Of a DNA stretch of 64,000 bases, positions 1,503 through 63,751 are shown piece by piece. Made by a program: the position numbers and the translations under genes. Within the stretch, counting starts at the first letter, position 1; each line of letters begins with the position of its first letter. Origin of the DNA: Methanobacteriota archaeon (GTDB lineage Archaea > Thermoplasmatota > Thermoplasmata > SG8-5 > JACRNV01); contig JACRNV010000014.1 in NCBI GenBank assembly GCA_016214785.1, positions 1-64,000 of the forward strand, given 5' to 3'. Below the pieces are notes generated by a model. It was not told the DNA's origin. It worked only from the letters and a program-made list of their open reading frames with translations, and ran no database searches.

Positions 1503-2876
1503 CTACATGCTGCTGTGCCTGTCCAGGCAGGTGTACTCCCCTTCCTTGATGGACAGGGGGCAGCCCCCTCCGCACGTGTCCCAGAGGGCGCAGTCCTTGC
1601 ACTTCTGGGGGAGGTACTTGCGCTCCCGCAATTCCTTGCACAGCTCGTGGTTCCATATCTTGTTCCAGGGGTCGGTAAGGATGTTGCCCAACGAAGTGTA
1701 GTAGCTCTGACACGGCAGGACGGCGCCGTCCGGCTCGACGGCCATGTTGATCGAGCAGGCCGTGCACTGCTTGATGCCCAGCCCCTCGTTGATTGGGTTG
1801 TACTCGCAGTACGGCGTCGGGGAGTACCATATCAGCCTGGCCTTCGTCTCCTCGGCGACGGCCTTGAGCCTCGCCAGAACAGCGGAGAGGCGCTCGAACG
1901 TGATTCCCTCGGCGCTCTTGCCGCCTCCGGAGCGGATTATGCCGTTGAAGGCGATGTTCTTGACTCCCAGGGAGGCGATGAAGCGCATAGTCTCCTCGAT
2001 GTCGCCGACGTTGCTGACCATTATCGTGGTGTTGGTGCTGACGTATATGTCCTCGGCTAGCGCGGCTTTAATCCCGGCAATAGTCTCATGCCACGCGCCC
2101 TGGGAGCATACGAGCGCGTCGTGGAGGCTCTCCCTGTGCGACAGGAGGGTGATTTGCACGTGGTCCAGGCCGACCTGCACGAGGTCGTGGAGGTAGCCCG
2201 GCCTCGCGAGGCTCCTGCCATTTGTCACAAGGCCGGTGACCTGCCCGTACTTCTCGGACTCGATAATCAATTCCCTGAGCCCGGGATGCAGCGTCGGCTC
2301 CCCCCCGGTGAATACGATGTGCGGGATGCCCTGCTCCCAGGTCTTCGCGATGACCTGCTTCCACTGCTCGGTTGTCAGCGCCTTCCTCTCGCCCGGCTCG
2401 TTGTAGCAGTGGCCGCACCTGTTCTGGCAGTCGTAGGTGAGCGCGAGGTCCATTCGGTAAGGCGAGGGCATGGCGTCCTCGCCTATGACCGGCGTCTCGG
2501 AGCCCATGAAGTCCATCACGCTCATGTCGCCGTGGACGAAGCCCTGGAGCTGCGCCCTCACAGCCCCGTGGTCGGCGACGGCCTGCGCCCTCTTGACCTT
2601 CTTGAACCTAGACAGTATATATTTAATGGTGCCCTTCTCGTCCTTCTCCTGGAGGATGCAGTGGACGTACTCCATCGCCGAGCCGTTGAGGAACAGCAGT
2701 TTCGACGCATCGACCAGAAGAACCCCCTTCCCCTCGGAATCGACGCGCAGGTGGAACCTGTGCCCGGTGAAGTCCCCTTTCCCGTCATACTTGTACGCGC
2801 CAGGCTTCAGGTCCGAGCGTTTCTTCCAGAGCGACATCAACGACCACCTCCCGCGCCCACCAGAGCATCCTGCCAA
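1503..2876 (-). CDS. Radical SAM/SPASM protein with PqqD/RRE-like N-terminal region
   Basis: CQNRCGHC (CX3CX2C), TGGEPTLHPG, SPASM-type cysteines (CTAC...C...CKDCALWDTCGGGCP...C); N-terminal GVLLVDASKLLFLNGSAMEYVHCIL resembles PqqD. Start may be 2837 (MSLWKK). Confidence 0.85.
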   Translation of the reverse strand: MAGCSGGRGRWSLMSLWKKRSDLKPGAYKYDGKGDFTGHRFHLRVDSEGKGVLLVDASKLLFLNGSAMEYVHCILQEKDEKGTIKYILSRFKKVKRAQAVADHGAVRAQLQGFVHGDMSVMDFMGSETPVIGEDAMPSPYRMDLALTYDCQNRCGHCYNEPGERKALTTEQWKQVIAKTWEQGIPHIVFTGGEPTLHPGLRELIIESEKYGQVTGLVTNGRSLARPGYLHDLVQVGLDHVQITLLSHRESLHDALVCSQGAWHETIAGIKAALAEDIYVSTNTTIMVSNVGDIEETMRFIASLGVKNIAFNGIIRSGGGKSAEGITFERLSAVLARLKAVAEETKARLIWYSPTPYCEYNPINEGLGIKQCTACSINMAVEPDGAVLPCQSYYTSLGNILTDPWNKIWNHELCKELRERKYLPQKCKDCALWDTCGGGCPLSIKEGEYTCLDRHSSM

Positions 2877-2935
2877 TCGTATTCTGGTGAACGCCTGATC
2901 GAATTACAATTATCTCCTGGCGCACGCCCGATCAT

Positions 2936-4603
2936 CTACCGCCCTCCCCCGGCGCATGCGCAAGCGCACGCACATGCGCATGCGCAACCGCCCCCGCCCC
3001 CGAACCCGCCGGCGCGGCCTCCGCTGCTGCTGTACTTGTAGACGGGGACTGGGTGAGTGACCCCGGTGACCTCCTGCGACAGGCCCTTGATGTTGCCGAC
3101 GAGGTTGCTGCTCGCGGACTTGACCTTGCTGGTGTAGGACTGGGCGAGCTGCTGGGCGCTGATCCCCGCTCCGGAAGGCGCGCCATAGAAGTGGTGCGGC
3201 CCGTGGATTATCCACGGCAGCACCCAGATGTCCGAGCGCATCCGGCGCTCGTAGTTGTCGTCGAGCATCATCCACTCGTTCTGGTCGGACAGGCCCTGCG
3301 CGAACTCCTCGGGCGTGCCCGCGGCCTTGACCTGCTTCCAGGCCTTATCGCATATCGCCTCGTAATAGCGCTTCGTTGCACCGTAGTTGAACCCCTCGAG
3401 CTTCTTCTGCGTCGAGTTGACGAGGTTGACCATCACGCTCAGGAGCTGCGCCCGGTCGACGCGGCCGTCGAGGCCGATGGCGCGCAGGTAGCCCGTCTCG
3501 TAGTCGTAATCGCCCCTCTCGGCGAGCTTGGTCAGCCTCATGGGCTTCTCTTCGGACACGATGCCGGCCATGCGCTTCCGTACGAGCCCGAAGAGCATCA
3601 TCGTGGCGACCATCTCCAGCGGCTTCTCGAGGACGACAGCCGCCTCAGGGGCCGTCAGGTCGCGTCTCGGCCCTGCGCCCGTTACGGAGAGCTTGGGCTC
3701 GAAGTAAGCGCGCGCCCTCTTCCTTGAATTGTAAATGCTATAAACGATTACGACTCCGAAGATGACGGCGATTATGAGGCAGGGCGCGAGAACGACAATG
3801 ATGTCCCAGAACGCCGACAGCGTGTCGCCGAGCTGGTCCCAAGCGGTGTACGTGTAATAATTGTCAACATATCTGGTCGGCAGTCCGGCGCCGAAGTCGT
3901 AGGAGCCGGCCTCGATGTCCCCCGGGGAGGCGTTGGAGGCCGTCCACGTTGCCATGACAAGCCCGGAAGCGTTGTCGAGCGCGATGCTGTCCCAGGGGTC
4001 GTTCTGGAGATAAATGGCCTCGGAGACGTTCGCGAACCCCGGCGGGAAGTAGACCCGTGAGCGAATGGAGCCCGTCGAGCCACGCTGGGACGAGGAGTCG
4101 AACCACGTGGGCCTGAACCTGATGCCTACGGTACCGGCCGTCTGCTCGTTCACATAGACCATGTGCGGGTTGTTGACCTGGAGGCGCACGGTGAAGTGCG
4201 TCCCGATGCCGATGGCCCTTTGGGTCGAGAGGTCGAACTCAACGCCTATCCCGATGCTCACGTATGGCGATTTCTGGACGCTGCAGGAGCGGGGCGCGAG
4301 ATTCCCGACCAGCACGCTGGCCGAGGCCGAGCCGAGGTTGTAGTACTTGTTCGGCATGCCGATGTCCACGCCGTCGATGGAGCCGTAATTTATGAACTCG
4401 ACGTCGTAGATTATGTCCACGCTGCCGTCCTTCTTCATGTAGACGTCCACCCACTCGTGGACGACGGAGAAGTCGTAGTCGGCCGCCCTAACATTGCTGG
4501 GAACCGCTACGAGAAATGCGAAGGACGATAGGACGATCGCCATGGTCACAGCGCTCGCGAGCGTCTTCCGGCGTTTTCCGACGATTCCCATCCCCCTCAC
4601 CAC
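2936..4603 (-). CDS. DUF2207-like membrane protein with Gly-rich (Cys-Ala)6 C-terminal tail
   Basis: Signal peptide, beta-rich ectodomain, TM (IIVVLAPCLIIAVIFGVVIVYSIY), basic cytosolic start, tail GGFGGGGG-CACACACACACA-GGGR. Start may be 4591. Confidence 0.8.
   Translation of the reverse strand: MVRGMGIVGKRRKTLASAVTMAIVLSSFAFLVAVPSNVRAADYDFSVVHEWVDVYMKKDGSVDIIYDVEFINYGSIDGVDIGMPNKYYNLGSASASVLVGNLAPRSCSVQKSPYVSIGIGVEFDLSTQRAIGIGTHFTVRLQVNNPHMVYVNEQTAGTVGIRFRPTWFDSSSQRGSTGSIRSRVYFPPGFANVSEAIYLQNDPWDSIALDNASGLVMATWTASNASPGDIEAGSYDFGAGLPTRYVDNYYTYTAWDQLGDTLSAFWDIIVVLAPCLIIAVIFGVVIVYSIYNSRKRARAYFEPKLSVTGAGPRRDLTAPEAAVVLEKPLEMVATMMLFGLVRKRMAGIVSEEKPMRLTKLAERGDYDYETGYLRAIGLDGRVDRAQLLSVMVNLVNSTQKKLEGFNYGATKRYYEAICDKAWKQVKAAGTPEEFAQGLSDQNEWMMLDDNYERRMRSDIWVLPWIIHGPHHFYGAPSGAGISAQQLAQSYTSKVKSASSNLVGNIKGLSQEVTGVTHPVPVYKYSSSGGRAGGFGGGGGCACACACACACAGGGR
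2951..2986 (-). repeat. (Cys-Ala)6 coding repeat at the C-terminus of the DUF2207-like protein
   Basis: Minus-strand codons TGC GCA TGC GCA TGT GCG TGC GCT TGC GCA TGC GCC, with mixed synonymous codons. Confidence 0.95.
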
Positions 4604-4974
4604 TTCGGCTCCTCCTCGAACACGCTCGTCTGGCCGCAGTAGGGGCAGACGGCGCTCAGGCCGCCCGATATCAGCGTGACGCTCCTACCGTCCAGCGCCG
4701 CCCCGCAGGACTTGCAGGAGAGCTTCCTTTCCCTGAACTCGCCCGAGCCGCCCATCGTGACGTTGTAGCTCTGCCGCACGATGGTCGGGGTCTGAGCCTC
4801 CTTCCTGATTATCATGTAGGCGATGCCGAAGAGCGCGAAACCGATGAGGGCCAGCACAGCCCCCATGATTATCGTGTCCATTGCCCCGGCGATCATGAAT
4901 ATGGCGCCGAGCATCAGGAGGAAGAGCCCTCCGATGACCAGGAGCCCGACGGCGACCTTTCCCATCATGCCCAT
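4597..4974 (-). CDS. Small membrane protein with C-terminal zinc ribbon
   Basis: Two N-terminal TM segments, then CKSCGAAL...CPYCGQTSVF; overlaps the start of the DUF2207-like gene. Confidence 0.75.
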   Translation of the reverse strand: MGMMGKVAVGLLVIGGLFLLMLGAIFMIAGAMDTIIMGAVLALIGFALFGIAYMIIRKEAQTPTIVRQSYNVTMGGSGEFRERKLSCKSCGAALDGRSVTLISGGLSAVCPYCGQTSVFEEEPKW

Positions 4975-5614: not shown

Positions 5615-6502
5615 ATGGACATACCGCAGTACCCGAAGTTCGCGCCGGTGGAGCTGGCGCACAGGCCAGCCGTCCTGGATTTCCTGAGGGAGGAGCGGAC
5701 GGAGGTCTCCGAGGTGAGCTTCTCCAGCATATACAGCTGGCGCGACAGCTATGCCCCCTCGCTCTCAGTCCTCGACGGGCTGCTTGTAATCCGAATTCTG
5801 TTTCCCGACGGCAGCGTCCACTGCTTCCCCCCGTTAGGCGAGGGGGACAAAGTGGGCGCAGCCGAACGCCTCTTCGCCGATGGCTGCCAGGCCATGGCCG
5901 GCGTCACGAACCCTCTCATGGGTATGCTCAGCTCGAAGGGCCACCCGGTCGAGCCGGACAGGGACAACTGGGACTACGTCTATGGCACTGCCGACCTGGC
6001 CGCCCTCGCCGGGACGAAGTACCACCGGAGGCGCAAGGACATCAACAAGTTCGAGAAGGCTGGGAAGGCCGAGTCCGCAATTCTCCGCAGTGAGGACATG
6101 GCCGACTGCATCAGGCTCGGTCGCGTATGGTGCGAGGAGCACATCGAGGACGAGAAGGCAATCGTCATCGCCGAGTGCAAGGCTCTGGTGCGCGCGTTCG
6201 AGGATTACGAGACTCTAAGCCTCTTCGGCGTCGTAGCCAGGCTGAACGGCCAGATATGCGCGTTCGCGGTGGCCGAGGAGCTGAACCCGGAAATGGTCGC
6301 CACGCACTTCGAGAAGGCCGATGCACAGGTCCCGGGAGCGTTCCAGTACGTCAACAGGGAGTTCGCCAAGGCTTTCCAGTCCAGATACAAGTGGGTGAAC
6401 AGGGAGCAGGACCTCGGGCTGCCGGGCCTGAGGGAGAACAAGCTCTCATACCATCCGCAACGCATGGTCGAGAAGCACATAGTGCGGAAGGTGGTGGCGT
6501 AG
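5615..6502 (+). CDS. DUF2156 / phosphatidylglycerol lysyltransferase C-terminal-like protein
   Basis: Start FAPVELAHRPAVLDFL...SFSSIYSWRD and GNAT-like KYHRRRKDINKFEKAG, AFQYVNREFAKAF...LGLPGLRENKLSYHPQRMVEKH, typical of DUF2156 proteins. Confidence 0.75.
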   Translation: MDIPQYPKFAPVELAHRPAVLDFLREERTEVSEVSFSSIYSWRDSYAPSLSVLDGLLVIRILFPDGSVHCFPPLGEGDKVGAAERLFADGCQAMAGVTNPLMGMLSSKGHPVEPDRDNWDYVYGTADLAALAGTKYHRRRKDINKFEKAGKAESAILRSEDMADCIRLGRVWCEEHIEDEKAIVIAECKALVRAFEDYETLSLFGVVARLNGQICAFAVAEELNPEMVATHFEKADAQVPGAFQYVNREFAKAFQSRYKWVNREQDLGLPGLRENKLSYHPQRMVEKHIVRKVVA

Positions 6503-9688: not shown

Positions 9689-12220
9689 CTACCAATCGAC
9701 TACCCAAACAGTATCTGCTGGGACGTAGACCCAATACCCTTCACCCGGTTTCATAATATAATTCGGGCCGACGACCTTGGTATGGTAAGTTGCATTCGCG
9801 TCGAAGGCCTCGACCATGGTTGCGCCGGTGCCCCAGAAGGCTACTGCCACGGTCGTTGTGGTATTGAGCGAAGGATAGCCAACCATGTTCCAACCTGTAT
9901 GCAAAGGGATTGATGTGAAGGTCGAATTTAATCCAGTCAGGTTTAGGAATCCATCGCCAACTGTAGTGATGTTGATCCAAACACCCATCGTACGGTTCAC
10001 CGTCGTCAGGTCGTTCAAAGTGCTCGCCCAACCTGTGTTGTACTGTTTCCAGTAGTTTGTAGCATCGAATGGGTCATACCATTGCAACCTGTCCCAAGTC
10101 GTATCCCCATCACAATCTAGAAGAGCGTTGGGGAGTACTAAATAGCCATTAATTAATGGCGAGGAAATGAAAGACCAACCAGCTACAACAGGTATTTTAT
10201 AATTGGTAAAGGACGTGTTTGAGAGTGAATACTCGACGGTGGATGGGGTTGCATTGTTGTCGAAAGCGAATGAGAATGTTGGGGCATTACCATATATTTG
10301 AGTGATGTTTATTGCGATATAATCAGTCGAACCTGCATTCCAATTTAGCATTCCCCAAAGTAAATATCCACCGGAAATGTAATTCGAACAATTATATGTG
10401 ATATTAGCAACAAAGATGCCACTCTGACCCCATCCAGTATACCAATTGTTAATTAGATCCCATATCCCTGTTACGGTGTTCCAGGCATGTATCTCAAGTG
10501 CCCCCCATGGGTCAACATTGCAGATTCCATAAGTCCCATTACACAATAAAGAAATGAAATTAACAGTCGTTGGCACTTCATCGATTTTAACTTTAAACCT
10601 AAAGAACTGACTATTATCAATACTTATAGAATCGATACATGAAATTTCGGAATACTCCACGTTACTGAACTCCACTAGATTGCTGTCAAATCCTCCTTGG
10701 CATTTCCATGCATCGTGAGGTCCACTAGTCTGCGTAACATTGGAATAATCATAAGTGTGTGTTATATTACAATTGAGTAATACTGAACTCACATGAATCC
10801 ACAGTTCAATTAAAAGTCTATCATTCGCTGGAAGGAGTGTTTTATTTATTACAGAATAATCCCAATAAAAACAGTGAAAGGATGTGAAGTTTACTATATC
10901 CTCATCGTCGTAATTTGTTGTGAAGAGTTTCTCGCCACTTACATTCTTTTTTACAATAGAGTATAAGTAGCCATGTGCATTATAAGTATTTAGTTTCCCA
11001 AACACCCTGAACTTCCATGTGCCTAGTAAATTCTGTGGCGATAAAAATATGTTACTAAGCCAGCCCGAATTAATTGAGTCAATCTTAAAGTCTCCAGTGC
11101 TATTAAGCAAGGAACTGTTCGCAATCTGAATTGAACTTTCGAATGAATCACAGTTTATAATCCTAAATCCGGGATATGGAGACTGAACTTGGAAAATGAG
11201 GACATTTTGAAAGATACCAATTGGATATCTATCTTTATTGAAACCGCCGGAGACTAAGTATGGCGTATCTCCAATACCATCGCTGCCAGATAAATCCTGA
11301 TTGGGTCCAGACATTACATCCGTGCCATTATAATTATCCCAATAATTGCCGCCGGATGGATAGCCGTTATCCCATGTATTTGTGCCAGTGTCTGATGCCT
11401 GGATTGTGTTGTTTCTGAAATTGTTGTGATATAAAGTATTACTAACAGGACTATTTACTAAATTAATTCCATAACTGTTATTGTATACATCATTGCCTCT
11501 CACTAGATTGTTTTTACAATTTTTATAAAATCTTAACCCATCGGAATTGAAAAATAACGTGTTATTTTGTATCGTATTGTTATCGCTCCAGGGGGCAGCA
11601 TTATAGTACAAATAGATTCCTTGCTGGTTCAATGCTGCAGTACAATTCATGATATTGTTGCCCGAGGACGATTCAAGGGCAATTCCAAAGGCATTGGACC
11701 ATATTGCATTATTATAAACGGTATCATTATTCGAATTGAGAAGATAAATACCGACGTTGCTACAAAGTGAAACATTATTATCGTTTAATGTGCCATTTTT
11801 AGTTAAATACAAGTACATTCCGCTATTCCGGGCATACGTTGCTGAATTCCCACTGGCATGATGCAGGTAACATCCGTGTACTGTAAAAAATGAAGTGACG
11901 TTTCCGATGAAAATGCAATAGCCAACGCCTGTGCCATTGATGTTATAATTCTCGATGATATAGGGATTTCCATAGGCCCCGTCCCCCGCCCATCCCTCGC
12001 TCGTCGCCATCGACGCAAACTCAGCGTTGGAGTTTATCCTAAAAGGCGCATGCGACGTATAATTCGAGAATGGAGATTGTATATTCGCATCTCTCTCGTT
12101 TTTTCCATCCTGGCTGCCCACGACCATGGCGCACAGCACCATCATTAGGCGGACGGCAACCGGTATGCACTTCCCCAGGGTTTTGCCCACCTTGCGCCTC
12201 CTTGTGCAATATACATGCAC
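9689..12220 (-). CDS. Secreted right-handed beta-helix (NosD-like) surface protein
   Basis: GNPYIIENYNINGTG, NNDTVYNNAIWSNAFGIALESSSGNNIMNC, GNYWDNYNGTDVMSGPNQDLSGSDGIGDTPY; AT-rich relative to flanks. Confidence 0.75.
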   Translation of the reverse strand: MHVYCTRRRKVGKTLGKCIPVAVRLMMVLCAMVVGSQDGKNERDANIQSPFSNYTSHAPFRINSNAEFASMATSEGWAGDGAYGNPYIIENYNINGTGVGYCIFIGNVTSFFTVHGCYLHHASGNSATYARNSGMYLYLTKNGTLNDNNVSLCSNVGIYLLNSNNDTVYNNAIWSNAFGIALESSSGNNIMNCTAALNQQGIYLYYNAAPWSDNNTIQNNTLFFNSDGLRFYKNCKNNLVRGNDVYNNSYGINLVNSPVSNTLYHNNFRNNTIQASDTGTNTWDNGYPSGGNYWDNYNGTDVMSGPNQDLSGSDGIGDTPYLVSGGFNKDRYPIGIFQNVLIFQVQSPYPGFRIINCDSFESSIQIANSSLLNSTGDFKIDSINSGWLSNIFLSPQNLLGTWKFRVFGKLNTYNAHGYLYSIVKKNVSGEKLFTTNYDDEDIVNFTSFHCFYWDYSVINKTLLPANDRLLIELWIHVSSVLLNCNITHTYDYSNVTQTSGPHDAWKCQGGFDSNLVEFSNVEYSEISCIDSISIDNSQFFRFKVKIDEVPTTVNFISLLCNGTYGICNVDPWGALEIHAWNTVTGIWDLINNWYTGWGQSGIFVANITYNCSNYISGGYLLWGMLNWNAGSTDYIAINITQIYGNAPTFSFAFDNNATPSTVEYSLSNTSFTNYKIPVVAGWSFISSPLINGYLVLPNALLDCDGDTTWDRLQWYDPFDATNYWKQYNTGWASTLNDLTTVNRTMGVWINITTVGDGFLNLTGLNSTFTSIPLHTGWNMVGYPSLNTTTTVAVAFWGTGATMVEAFDANATYHTKVVGPNYIMKPGEGYWVYVPADTVWVVDW

Positions 12221-59318: not shown

Positions 59319-59561
59319 ATGTTTGAAATCTGTAGTATTATGGATCGCGCTCAATCAACCATTCGACGAATACGAAATGCAATAAAAGACGGAAATCTGA
59401 AGAAGAAATTTACTGGGATGGATTTAGTAAAAATTGGAATTAGGCCAGGAACCGCATGGACATTTCTCTGGAAACATAGAAAAGGAACAACGCAATCAGT
59501 TAGGGAATATTTTATCAAGAACTCAGTCGGCCAATATAGTTTGATAGATGATGATTCTTAG
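59319..59561 (+). CDS. Small basic protein, possible HTH
   Basis: 80-aa ORF in AT-rich region; stop overlaps the convergent stop of the next gene (TTAG). Confidence 0.5.
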   Translation: MFEICSIMDRAQSTIRRIRNAIKDGNLKKKFTGMDLVKIGIRPGTAWTFLWKHRKGTTQSVREYFIKNSVGQYSLIDDDS

Positions 59562-60583
59562 TCTTTTGTCTTAAAGCAATTGGTATGCACCTCAATAAAC
59601 GCTAGCTTTATTTCCTCTAGTAATCGTTCCATTGAGTTGAGTATTATCAAGTTTTCAATAGATGGCTTTGAGGTGAGTAATGCAACGTTGACGTGATATA
59701 ATGAAATAGCCGCGTTTTGTCCGGGATCGGCCAAACCAGCATTGCTTGGTCCTGAAAGAATCAAGTCTTTGGACGAAATAATCCCTAAATTGAAACGAAT
59801 CCCTTTAGGATTTGCATGAGTAGGATGGCTAGCCATTCTGTAATATGGTCGTAGATGATTTAAACCAACTGCTTTTTCAATGTCAACGAAGCTAGGTCCA
59901 TGCCCATCTTTTCTATTTGTGTTCACGACTCTTGATGCCCAGCCATAATTGCCAGAAAATGGCTTGCCATATTTCCGACAAAGTTCATCTCGCATTTTGT
60001 TAAGTTTGTCTAATTCATCCTGGGTAATTGGTTCCGTGTCTAATTTTCTTTCATGCGTCTTTAATTCGTTTAGAGCCTTATATGATTCGATTATTTCATG
60101 AAGTAAGTATCGCTCCGCAAGTTCTTTGTCATGCATTTTTATCAAGTGACTTGTCACAGCTATTTCGTGTAAAGTTCGCCATCTAGCATGAGCGCCCGAG
60201 GCATAACCGCTACGAAGCAGGGTATGTATTTCATATGCTGTTAAACAAGCTCGGCCATGCAGCCTGATTAAAACCTCGAATATAAAATCATTCTCTTTTA
60301 CTGCTACTGGTCGGAATTTTTTATTGAATGTTTCACCTGTTTCGTGAGACATCACAATAAACATTCCTAGAAGGTCAAGTGGTTTTTTCCATATGTCATA
60401 AAGACGCTTTTCAAAATTTCTCCTTATTAGTTGATGTTCTTTAAGTATTCTAGGCGCATCGTGCTTCAGTTCATCGAGTAATTTAGAGCCTCCTTCATGA
60501 ATTGCCTTTTTAGTTATTTTTGAAATTATACTAGGTACATCGCTAATTTTACTCAAATCAATTTCATTCTTTTTTAATGGCAT
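59558..60583 (-). CDS. DUF5677-like protein
   Basis: LIRLHGRACLTAYEIHTLLRSGYASGAHARWRTLHEIAVTSHLI and YRMASHPTHANPKGIRFNLG, as in DUF5677 proteins. Confidence 0.7.
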   Translation of the reverse strand: MPLKKNEIDLSKISDVPSIISKITKKAIHEGGSKLLDELKHDAPRILKEHQLIRRNFEKRLYDIWKKPLDLLGMFIVMSHETGETFNKKFRPVAVKENDFIFEVLIRLHGRACLTAYEIHTLLRSGYASGAHARWRTLHEIAVTSHLIKMHDKELAERYLLHEIIESYKALNELKTHERKLDTEPITQDELDKLNKMRDELCRKYGKPFSGNYGWASRVVNTNRKDGHGPSFVDIEKAVGLNHLRPYYRMASHPTHANPKGIRFNLGIISSKDLILSGPSNAGLADPGQNAAISLYHVNVALLTSKPSIENLIILNSMERLLEEIKLAFIEVHTNCFKTKD

Positions 60584-60599
60584 AATATCGAATCCACGC

Positions 60600-61031
60600 T
60601 CACAACTTATATCTCGCCGGGTACATCTCTCCTGGCTTGAGATATTCAATCTCTTTAATCAGGAGTTCGACGAGCGCGAACTCCGGGTCGTCCGGGCCCT
60701 TCCAGTACTCCTTGAAGAAGGGGCACTGCGCGACCATCTTCGCCTTCGTTCTCCTGTCCTTCACGATGCGCGCCTTCCCGCTGGCCCGGATGTAGCCGCT
60801 GTGCTCCCCGCCCTTGAAGGCGTAGCAGAACTCGAAGGCGGGGTCTTTGGCCATCTCTCTGGCCTTCTTGGAGCCTGCGCTCGTGAACACCCACAGCCTC
60901 GAATCGATGCAGCCGAGGCTCACGGGCCTGACCCTTGGCGTCTTACCATCGTAGGTGGCCAGGTAGGCCGTCTGGAATTTCGAGAAGTTCCCCCATATCT
61001 CCTTTTTTGCGCTGGCTGTGAGCTTTTTCAT
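60600..61031 (-). CDS. Pyridoxamine 5'-phosphate oxidase-like FMN-binding protein
   Basis: FQTAYLATYDGKTPRVRPVSLGCIDSRLWVFTSAGSKKAREMAKDPAFEFCYAF. Confidence 0.82.
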   Translation of the reverse strand: MKKLTASAKKEIWGNFSKFQTAYLATYDGKTPRVRPVSLGCIDSRLWVFTSAGSKKAREMAKDPAFEFCYAFKGGEHSGYIRASGKARIVKDRRTKAKMVAQCPFFKEYWKGPDDPEFALVELLIKEIEYLKPGEMYPARYKL

Positions 61032-62144: not shown

Positions 62145-63751
62145 ACCTGACCAGGATATACGCCAACATAGTGGTCAACATCAAGGGGTTCTACAGGAAC
62201 AAGGGGGCGATGTTCTTCGTCCTCTTCTTCCCGATACTGCTCATACTCCTGTTCGGGGCGATATTCTCGAACATTGGAGATCAATCATACCCGATCGCCG
62301 TTCAGAACAAGGACGGCGGCTGGTGGTCGCAGCAGGTCGTCGAGGGCCTGAACAAGACCGGGATGATAACTGTAACGATGGTCGACCCGTCCGCCGACCC
62401 GTATGCCTACATGAACGACACCAAGTCGAACGCCGTCCTCATAATACCCGAGAACTTCACGGCAGACATCAACAACACGAAGCTGTCGTTCCAGTACACA
62501 CTCGACGCGCTATCGAAGACGACAGAGTCGTTGAATTACACGGTCGAAGCCCTATCACGGACGACGGACTCGCTCAACTACACCCTGATGGCGCTGAACG
62601 ACACCGGCAACGCGCTCAATTACACGGCGATGGCCCTGAGCAGCACGCAAGGGGCCCTCAACTACTCCCTGATGGCGATGAACAGCACGCAGTGGGCGCT
62701 GAACTACTCGGGGATGGCGCTAGCGTCCGCGCCGCCGAGCTCCACGACGTTCATCGGGCTCGCGATGAACGCCAGCGCCGAGTCGCTGGGGAGCACCGGG
62801 ATGGCCCTGAACCTGACGCCGGCCGCGCTGAACGCCTCGCTCGCGGCATTAGGCGGCTCGCAGTCCTCGATGAACGCCACCCTGCTGGCGCTCCAGTACA
62901 CCCAGGCCACGCTGAACGCCACGCTGGGCGCGCTCAACGCCACGCAGGCGGCGCTGAACTTCACCATCGGCGCCCTGAACTTCGCCATACCGTCCAACGA
63001 GACGCTGAAGCTTACCATGCTCTACGATTCCAGCTCCAGCAGCGCGCTGACGAAGGTGCAGATACTCCAGCAGGTCATGGACGGCTTCAACAAGGGGCTG
63101 AGCAACGCGCAGGACGTCATGGCCATAGACCCGCAGTCGGTCGTCGCCAAGCAGTTCAAGTTCATAGACTACTACGCGCCGGGCATCGTCGGAATGTCGG
63201 TCATGACGGCGAGCCTCTTCGGCACGGTGGGCATGAACACCGAGCTCAGGCAGAAGGGCGTGCTGCGCAAGCTGGCCACCACCCCGCTCACGAGGGCGGA
63301 GTGGCTCGTGTCGAACATCCTCTACCAGCTCATACTCGCGTTCATATCGACCGCGCTCATTCTATTCGTAGGCTATCTGGCGTTCGGGCTCAAGCCAATC
63401 ATAAACATCTTCCTCTTCGTCTTCGTGCTCATGGACGTATTCGCCTTCTCGGGCATAGGCATGCTCATCACGCGCTTCGTGAAGGACGCCGAGGCCGCGC
63501 AGGCTGCGGCGAACCTGGTCATGTTCCCGGTGATGTTCCTGTCCGGGACGTTCTTCCAGATCGAGATGATGCCGGACTTCCTGCAGACGGTCGCCAACTT
63601 CATGCCCCTCTACTACGTGAGCGACGGCCTGAGGCAGGCGATGATACTGCTCAACTGGGCGATGCTCTATTATGACCTCATGGTCATTTCCGTCTTCGGG
63701 ATCATCATGTTCGTCCTGGGCATCCTGCTGACGTCGTGGAAGGAAGACTGA
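62141..63751 (+). CDS. ABC-2 type transporter permease with large repeat-containing extracytoplasmic insert
   Basis: N-terminal FFVLFFPILLILLFGAIFSNIG; C-terminal TMs (GTVGMNTELRQKGVLRKLATTPLTRAEWL...); central ALNYTxMALxxT repeats. Confidence 0.9.
   Translation: MNLTRIYANIVVNIKGFYRNKGAMFFVLFFPILLILLFGAIFSNIGDQSYPIAVQNKDGGWWSQQVVEGLNKTGMITVTMVDPSADPYAYMNDTKSNAVLIIPENFTADINNTKLSFQYTLDALSKTTESLNYTVEALSRTTDSLNYTLMALNDTGNALNYTAMALSSTQGALNYSLMAMNSTQWALNYSGMALASAPPSSTTFIGLAMNASAESLGSTGMALNLTPAALNASLAALGGSQSSMNATLLALQYTQATLNATLGALNATQAALNFTIGALNFAIPSNETLKLTMLYDSSSSSALTKVQILQQVMDGFNKGLSNAQDVMAIDPQSVVAKQFKFIDYYAPGIVGMSVMTASLFGTVGMNTELRQKGVLRKLATTPLTRAEWLVSNILYQLILAFISTALILFVGYLAFGLKPIINIFLFVFVLMDVFAFSGIGMLITRFVKDAEAAQAAANLVMFPVMFLSGTFFQIEMMPDFLQTVANFMPLYYVSDGLRQAMILLNWAMLYYDLMVISVFGIIMFVLGILLTSWKED
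62470..62993 (+). repeat. ~14-aa repeat rich in N-x-S/T sequons within the ABC-2 permease
   Basis: SLNYTVEALSRTTD-SLNYTLMALNDTGN-ALNYTAMALSSTQG-ALNYSLMAMNSTQW-ALNYSGMAL ... ALNATQAALNFTIGAL. Confidence 0.9.

Follow-up and report, generated by a model that had tools for sequence, protein, structure and literature searches.

A radical SAM/SPASM enzyme linked to a conserved Cys-Ala tail, predicted to be cytosolic, on membrane proteins of archaea and bacteria

Results and discussion

In a 64,000-nt stretch of the genome of a Methanobacteriota archaeon (contig JACRNV010000014.1; this whole stretch is called the window, and coordinates given without a locus label are positions in it), a gene for a radical S-adenosylmethionine (SAM)/SPASM enzyme was found beside a gene for a membrane protein that ends in six Cys-Ala repeats followed by GGGR. 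The central proposal, that the enzyme acts on the predicted cytosolic tail of this membrane protein, is strongly supported by comparisons of genomes and protein sequences, and we consider it very probable that the tail is modified in place. The evidence comes from the co-occurrence of the tail and the enzyme, the conservation of the tail, the kinship of the enzyme with peptide maturases, and the predicted topology of the membrane protein.

Co-occurrence of the tail and the enzyme

The first-pass annotation of this region had suggested that the tail and the enzyme should be sought together in other genomes. Every sequence-based check that it had named as able to refute its proposal came out in favour of the proposal. 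Their co-occurrence was near-perfect in three samples of genomes, and in a fourth sample both were rare but coincided. Among 61 relatives, a close enzyme was found in 8 genomes (51-62% identity outside the window), with the tail protein adjoining it in the same 8; in one genome of this sample (G026) runs of N interrupt the gene. In the phylum, 344 genomes were compared; the enzyme (E < 1e-30) was detected in 22 and the DNA pattern of the tail in 22, with both present in 21. The one genome with the enzyme and no tail (G202) has the enzyme at a contig end, so a tail cannot be seen there, and the odd genome with the pattern (G098) contained chance matches in unrelated reading frames and no tail. 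All 21 genomes with a real tail carried the enzyme. Within a single genus (g35), two genomes contained both the tail and the enzyme, and two others (G047 and G133) contained neither.

In bacteria, 130 genomes from the class of Ornatilinea (Chloroflexota) included 18 with a close enzyme and 17 with the tail, and none had the tail alone. In 149 genomes from one order of Clostridia (the Oscillospiraceae order) the enzyme was present in only 2, both of which had the tail; a third pattern match in this order was a chance match. G574 was likewise rejected as a chance match and not a tail. Fisher tests gave p = 2e-31, 2e-20, and 3e-4 for the phylum, class, and order samples, respectively, values that ignore the kinship of the genomes and so overstate the case.

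A scan of the whole of GTDB, with one genome per species, used the DNA of Gly-(Cys-Ala)4 without consulting the enzyme and returned at least 117 stretches. Among the matches listed, to which the counts and taxa in this paragraph and the tail forms described below refer, 93 were true C-terminal tails and 25 were chance matches. The enzyme was found in the fetched DNA for 71 of the 93 real tails, nearly all of the others being without the needed flank, and in the locus of none of the 25 chance matches. One tail that appeared to have no enzyme (L035) was rejected as such, the enzyme lying directly past the fetched stretch. The tails came from the Thermoplasmatota, Heimdallarchaeota, Chloroflexota, Armatimonadota, Planctomycetota, Coatesbacteria, Zixibacteria, Aminicenantes, Bacillota, Acholeplasmatales, and Eggerthellaceae. 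Carriers of the system include the named strain Ornatilinea apprima (L041) and Leptolinea sp. HRD-7 (L074), the latter with a complete genome. Action of the enzyme in trans is plausible, because the tail and the enzyme were on separate contigs in two genomes (G397 and G491) and one locus (L123) contained two tail proteins.

Conservation and forms of the tail

The tail protein (555 amino acids, positions 2936-4603, minus strand) ends in GGFGGGGG-CACACACACACA-GGGR, as the first-pass annotation had read it. The putative substrate, (Cys-Ala)6-GGGR, is encoded at 2939-2986 (minus strand), with CACACACACACA at 2951-2986 and GGGR at 2939-2950. A DNA microsatellite read as protein was ruled out: the codons of the repeat vary (TGC GCA TGC GCA TGT GCG TGC GCT TGC GCA TGC GCC), and a pure hexamer repeat was found in 0 of 72 tails. 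Elsewhere in the 2.18 Mb genome of the window there was one more match to three consecutive TGYGCN units (C18:4343), which follows the reading frame of no likely gene and was dismissed as chance.

Across 48 homologues, which are otherwise only 27-51% identical to the window protein, the tail is the best-conserved section, and its ending CACACAGGGR is invariant; most of these homologues had been fetched with a pattern that included the first Cys-Ala pairs, with GGGR outside it. Conservation of the tail is far above chance, since it is the most conserved part, with an invariant end, of proteins that otherwise diverge. Four forms were distinguished. Tails of archaea read (CA)6-GGGR, those of the second form, mostly in the Chloroflexota, read CACACACA-G-CACACA-GGGR, and those of the Armatimonadota, the Planctomycetota, and some others read CACACA-G-CACACACA-GGGR. 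The fourth form carries a short extension, (CA)n-GGGRAGC(S/T)xKDFY or GGGAAGCAPK, and was found in the Bacillota and one archaeal family (f41).

Architecture and topology of the tail protein

The predicted parts of the tail protein are a signal sequence, an extracytoplasmic beta-sandwich (residues ~45-242), a transmembrane helix (~254-298), a cytosolic winged-helix/helical region, and a C-terminal tail that is disordered in the predicted structure from residue ~528 to the end. The net charge after the last transmembrane helix averaged +1.8, vs -0.5 before it, and was the higher of the two in 50 of 71 tail proteins. This order of signal sequence, extracytoplasmic domain, transmembrane helix, positively charged flank, and disordered tail places the tail on the cytosolic side by prediction, within reach of the enzyme, as had been argued earlier from the arginines after the transmembrane helix.

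The earlier description of the protein as DUF2207-like held only in part. The window protein has no match to the Pfam models of DUF2207 (PF09972/PF20990), and none was found in the 48 aligned tail proteins (the window protein and 47 others). A sister protein described below (from locus L214) is barely over the gathering cut-off of PF09972, at 24.8 vs 24.4 bits, and two others (L097 and L143) score below it. The search of the tail protein against all of Pfam gave stray matches only, and a profile search of the PDB gave no match. In a fold search, M1 aminopeptidases and chains of oligosaccharyltransferase structures were matched only in part, with a TM-score of ~0.25, too low to indicate a function, and these matches were set aside.

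The enzyme belongs to the RRE-containing radical SAM/SPASM maturases

The enzyme gene occupies 1503-2837 on the minus strand, coding for 444 amino acids from the ATG at 2837, which homologues indicate is a more likely start than the TTG at 2876 of the listed open reading frame. Sequence and predicted structure bore out its description as a CX3CX2C radical SAM enzyme with SPASM cysteines and a PqqD/RRE-like N-terminus. The protein matched the Pfam models Radical_SAM (PF04055, E 8e-21) and SPASM (PF13186, E 7e-12). The three cysteines of the CX3CX2C motif (C137, C141, and C144; 2406-2429, minus strand) were invariant in an alignment of 58 enzyme sequences, and PF13186 was matched in 58 of 58 homologues. 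The SPASM region (1524-1766, minus strand), located by PF13186, alignment, and direct reading, has the seven-cysteine pattern of auxiliary Fe-S clusters, which is complete in the window enzyme and reduced in homologues from the Bacillota.

The fold prediction recommended for the N-terminus was run with AlphaFold2 together with profile searches, and the domain was RRE-like. In the model (predicted local distance difference test score 89), residues 13-101 (2535-2801, minus strand) form four strands followed by three helices, the arrangement of an RRE. Positions 23-103 of the alignment profile matched TfuB1, a lasso-peptide RRE protein (6jx3, E 2.4e-4), and Pfam PqqD was detected in 33 of the 58 homologues; the window enzyme searched alone had no PqqD match. 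The core of the profile matched SkfB (6efn, E 1e-38), PqqE, SuiB, and CteB in the PDB. Foldseek ranked SkfB and SuiB (with and without peptide) first, with CteB close behind, and the radical SAM epimerase EpeE was also among the structural relatives. This sequence and model evidence assigns the enzyme to a known kind, the RRE-containing radical SAM/SPASM peptide maturases.

A second radical SAM-like copy without CX3CX2C accompanies the active one in many loci of the Chloroflexota, Armatimonadota, and Planctomycetota (for example L028:4111-5313, L077:3584-5140, and L030:1670-2974). Some of these copies retain a PqqD-like or SPASM-like region, and by sequence they are likely pseudo-enzyme partners.

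Fourteen genomes in the Chloroflexota class contained a more distant enzyme (31-37% identity) and no Cys-Ala tail. These enzymes form a sister clade, and in three of their loci that were read, the neighbouring DUF2207-like protein, of the same kind as the tail protein, ends in (Cys-His-Ser-Ala)n (CHSA). Loci of the CHSA type (L214:6150-7831, L216:2977-4728, and L220:2953-4727) also have two further neighbours in common, a coiled-coil protein (~380-420 amino acids) and a membrane protein whose C-terminus is a zinc ribbon (CPYC…CPNCGA). In a maximum-likelihood tree of the 58 enzymes, the seven groups defined by tail and taxon required six changes, which is the minimum. Enzymes of archaeal family f41 grouped with those of the extended-tail Bacillota (support 100/99) and not with the enzymes of other archaea. 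In the sequences compared, tail type matches enzyme clade.

Gene cassette and methyltransferase

The three minus-strand genes lie where the first-pass annotation had placed them, at 4597-4974, 2936-4603, and 1503-2876. The operon-like order that it described was upheld; it had missed a fourth member of the cassette, a class I SAM methyltransferase at 364-1110 on the plus strand, convergent to the operon. The first gene (4597-4974) encodes a small zinc-ribbon membrane protein with a conserved C-terminus, EEPKW, and overlaps the tail protein gene by 7 bp. Homologues of it were found upstream at ~22 loci, ranging from archaea to Armatimonadota. As judged from these neighbourhoods, the zinc-ribbon membrane protein, the tail protein, the enzyme, and the methyltransferase are a conserved cassette. 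No recurrent peptidase or exporter was found among the genes neighbouring the cassette across the loci.

The methyltransferase is a conserved neighbour where the tail ends at GGGR. In loci with at least 2.5 kb of visible flank, METHYLTRANSFERASE (methyltransferase) homologues were found no more than 4.5 kb from 42 of 55 tails that end in GGGR, and near 0 of 25 extended or CHSA tails. This correlation may reflect very few evolutionary events, because the extended-tail enzymes of the Cys-Ala type form one clade. The relatives of the methyltransferase in PDB profile searches included, among many others, LahSB, BamL, and CypM, which are enzymes of pathways for ribosomally synthesised and post-translationally modified peptides (RiPPs). 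LahSB methylates a C-terminal carboxylate. This analogy suggests that the methyltransferase may cap a free C-terminus, and that it acts on the C-terminus of the tail protein itself is possible but doubtful.

Comparison with known systems

SkfB, CteB, and SuiB, which gave the best profile and fold matches, resemble the window enzyme in having an RRE-like domain, a radical SAM core, and a SPASM domain. Their substrates, however, are short secreted peptides that carry a leader; the candidate substrate here is a C-terminal tail belonging to a membrane protein of 300-650 amino acids, with no protease or exporter recurring nearby. Sactipeptide and ranthipeptide systems use a short leader-bearing precursor peptide that is usually cleaved and exported, from which the candidate in the window differs, being the tail of the 555-amino-acid membrane protein. 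The ACGX, His-Xaa-Ser, and other repeat-peptide systems of NCBIfam also have a radical SAM/SPASM enzyme encoded beside a substrate with short repeats, but the window enzyme scored only 62.1 bits against the ACGX model (TIGR04340; cut-off 400) and 69 bits against HxsC (cut-off 268), and both repeats differ from Cys-Ala. DUF2207 proteins are similar in having an extracytoplasmic N-terminal domain, a transmembrane segment, a cytosolic part, and a Gly-rich C-terminus; an ordinary member (L214:9854-10999) ends Gly-rich without a Cys repeat.

The nearest concept in the literature, and the only one found, was that of the TIGR04222 proteins, membrane proteins whose C-terminal tail is disordered, rich in Cys and Gly, and the proposed substrate of a neighbouring enzyme (PMC12452194). 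In that system the enzyme is MNIO (DUF692), a multinuclear iron oxidase unrelated to radical SAM enzymes, and the tail is predicted to be periplasmic, whereas the tail described here is predicted to be cytosolic (PMC12452194). The association is also looser than that of the present tail and enzyme, 490 of 1372 genomes with TIGR04222 being without MNIO genes (PMC12452194). TIGR04222 was not matched by five homologous tail proteins (E 0.1) or by the window protein (E 1). No description of a radical SAM enzyme paired with DUF2207, with the CACACACACA string, or with Cys-Ala was found in the literature, in a search that left subscription literature and preprints mostly outside, so a prior description is possible. 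As far as these comparisons go, the kind of enzyme is known and the type of substrate, a cytosolic membrane-protein tail, appears to be new, with TIGR04222/MNIO as the sole parallel found.

Proposed modification and alternative explanations

The cassette would be devoted to the post-translational modification of an integral membrane protein. The RRE-like domain would bind the cytosolic C-terminal region, probably at the residues directly ahead of the tail, and the radical SAM/SPASM core would alter the repeated cysteines of (Cys-Ala)n, or residues adjacent to them. The likeliest product would be a set of intramolecular thioether cross-links of the sactionine or ranthipeptide type, which is the best guess because the two repeat types have Cys as their constant element and the closest structures belong to cross-link formers; we regard a thioether as evenly balanced against everything else. 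Such cross-links would give a flexible tail a compact form, either redox-inert or metal-coordinating. Because no recurring peptidase or exporter was found, the product is probably retained by the membrane protein, where it may have a redox, metal-related, or structural role at the membrane. The zinc-ribbon membrane protein would be an accessory, and the methyltransferase might cap the C-terminal carboxylate of tails ending in GGGR-COOH. Without the methyltransferase step, this explanation as a whole is moderately probable, a compromise between the high confidence in action on the tail and the even balance on the thioether.

Several observations weigh against this explanation. In the Chloroflexota class, one genome (G396) has the enzyme and the methyltransferase, and a tail was not found by the pattern. 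Two tails (L075 and L130) had no enzyme nearby; the genome of L075 has the enzyme elsewhere, beside a methyltransferase, and L130 stands as an exception. The relationship of the tail protein to DUF2207 is weak. The enzyme fell far below every cut-off of the curated radical SAM families of NCBIfam, and hence no substrate or product can be assigned by homology. The pair of CHSA enzymes in the tree is set apart by a very long branch, of 3.3 changes per column, which makes their kinship with the rest less secure. With only Ala and Gly as neighbours of the cysteines there is little basis for choosing an acceptor.

If the enzyme acts on the tail, its chemistry could still differ from thioether formation, for example by epimerising alternate residues to give a strand of alternating D and L residues, or by forming C-C or C-N bonds. 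A strict dipeptide repeat fits an enzyme that acts at every second residue, and EpeE is an epimerase, but the constancy of Cys in both (CA)n and (CHSA)n points to sulphur chemistry and the best matches (SkfB, CteB, and SuiB) are cross-link formers, so that other chemistry seems unlikely. It is harder to see the tail as an unmodified metal or Fe-S site for zinc, copper, or iron, with the enzyme making or inserting something else. Six or seven close cysteines could hold a metal, and zinc-ribbon proteins or domains accompany the system; yet if the substrate were not a peptide, the N-terminal RRE-like domain and the relationship to peptide maturases would be difficult to account for, and in the genomes and matches listed the tail was seen only with this enzyme. 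We consider this explanation improbable.

The PqqD-like nature of the RRE domain, and the distant relationship to PqqE and the mycofactocin enzymes, would suit a tail from which a product is released, be it a small cofactor or a peptide as with PqqA or mycofactocin, the membrane protein being only a carrier. Against this, the loci showed no conserved peptidase or exporter and, the methyltransferase excepted, no conserved tailoring enzyme; in all lineages seen the tail remains part of a large conserved protein, and the tails of the Bacillota are followed by a conserved extension, which together make release very unlikely. Acylation can occur on cytosolic tails that are rich in Cys and lie near a membrane, and multiple S-acylation could make the tail a membrane anchor whose association with the enzyme is coincidental. 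The association is far too strong for coincidence, however, and to our knowledge such systems are not established in prokaryotes, leaving this explanation hardly credible.

Modification of the cytosolic tail in place remains the preferred explanation. In its widest form this would be an ancient archaeal-bacterial system centred on a radical SAM enzyme, which is often joined by a methyltransferase and in many bacteria by a catalytically dead paralogue. The enzyme would construct a Cys structure, cross-linked and capped at the C-terminus, on the cytosolic end of the integral membrane protein, to be kept as a working part in redox, metal, or signalling functions and not released. This full form is put forward tentatively, as falling just short of probable.

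Other genes in the window

Near the cassette, on the opposite strand, positions 5615-6502 (plus strand) encode a protein with a match to PF09924, the C-terminal domain of phosphatidylglycerol lysyltransferase (E 4e-42). Two genes were probably acquired: one at 9689-12220 (minus strand), for a secreted-looking protein of 843 amino acids with beta-helix-like repeats, lies in a stretch of 39% GC vs ~60% in the rest of the window, and one at 59558-60649 (minus strand), for a protein of 363 amino acids, lies in a stretch of 44% GC at 58-60 kb. An ABC-2 type permease at ~62150-63751 (plus strand) contains about a dozen tandem repeats of ~14 residues, many of them containing N-x-S/T (…ALNYTLMALNDTGNALNYTAMALSSTQGALNYS…); the repeats lie in a loop that is probably on the outside.

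Significance

RiPP chemistry is usually viewed as a route to secreted peptides and cofactors. In the present case an enzyme of that kind is tied to one nearly invariant tail of a membrane protein, from Heimdallarchaeota to Clostridia, and nothing points to cleavage or export. The system also indicates what function to seek in a family of membrane proteins that is poorly understood. If the tail is modified in place, this would be a new and widely distributed class of protein modification at the cell membrane, and the two repeat types would provide substrates for working out the chemistry.

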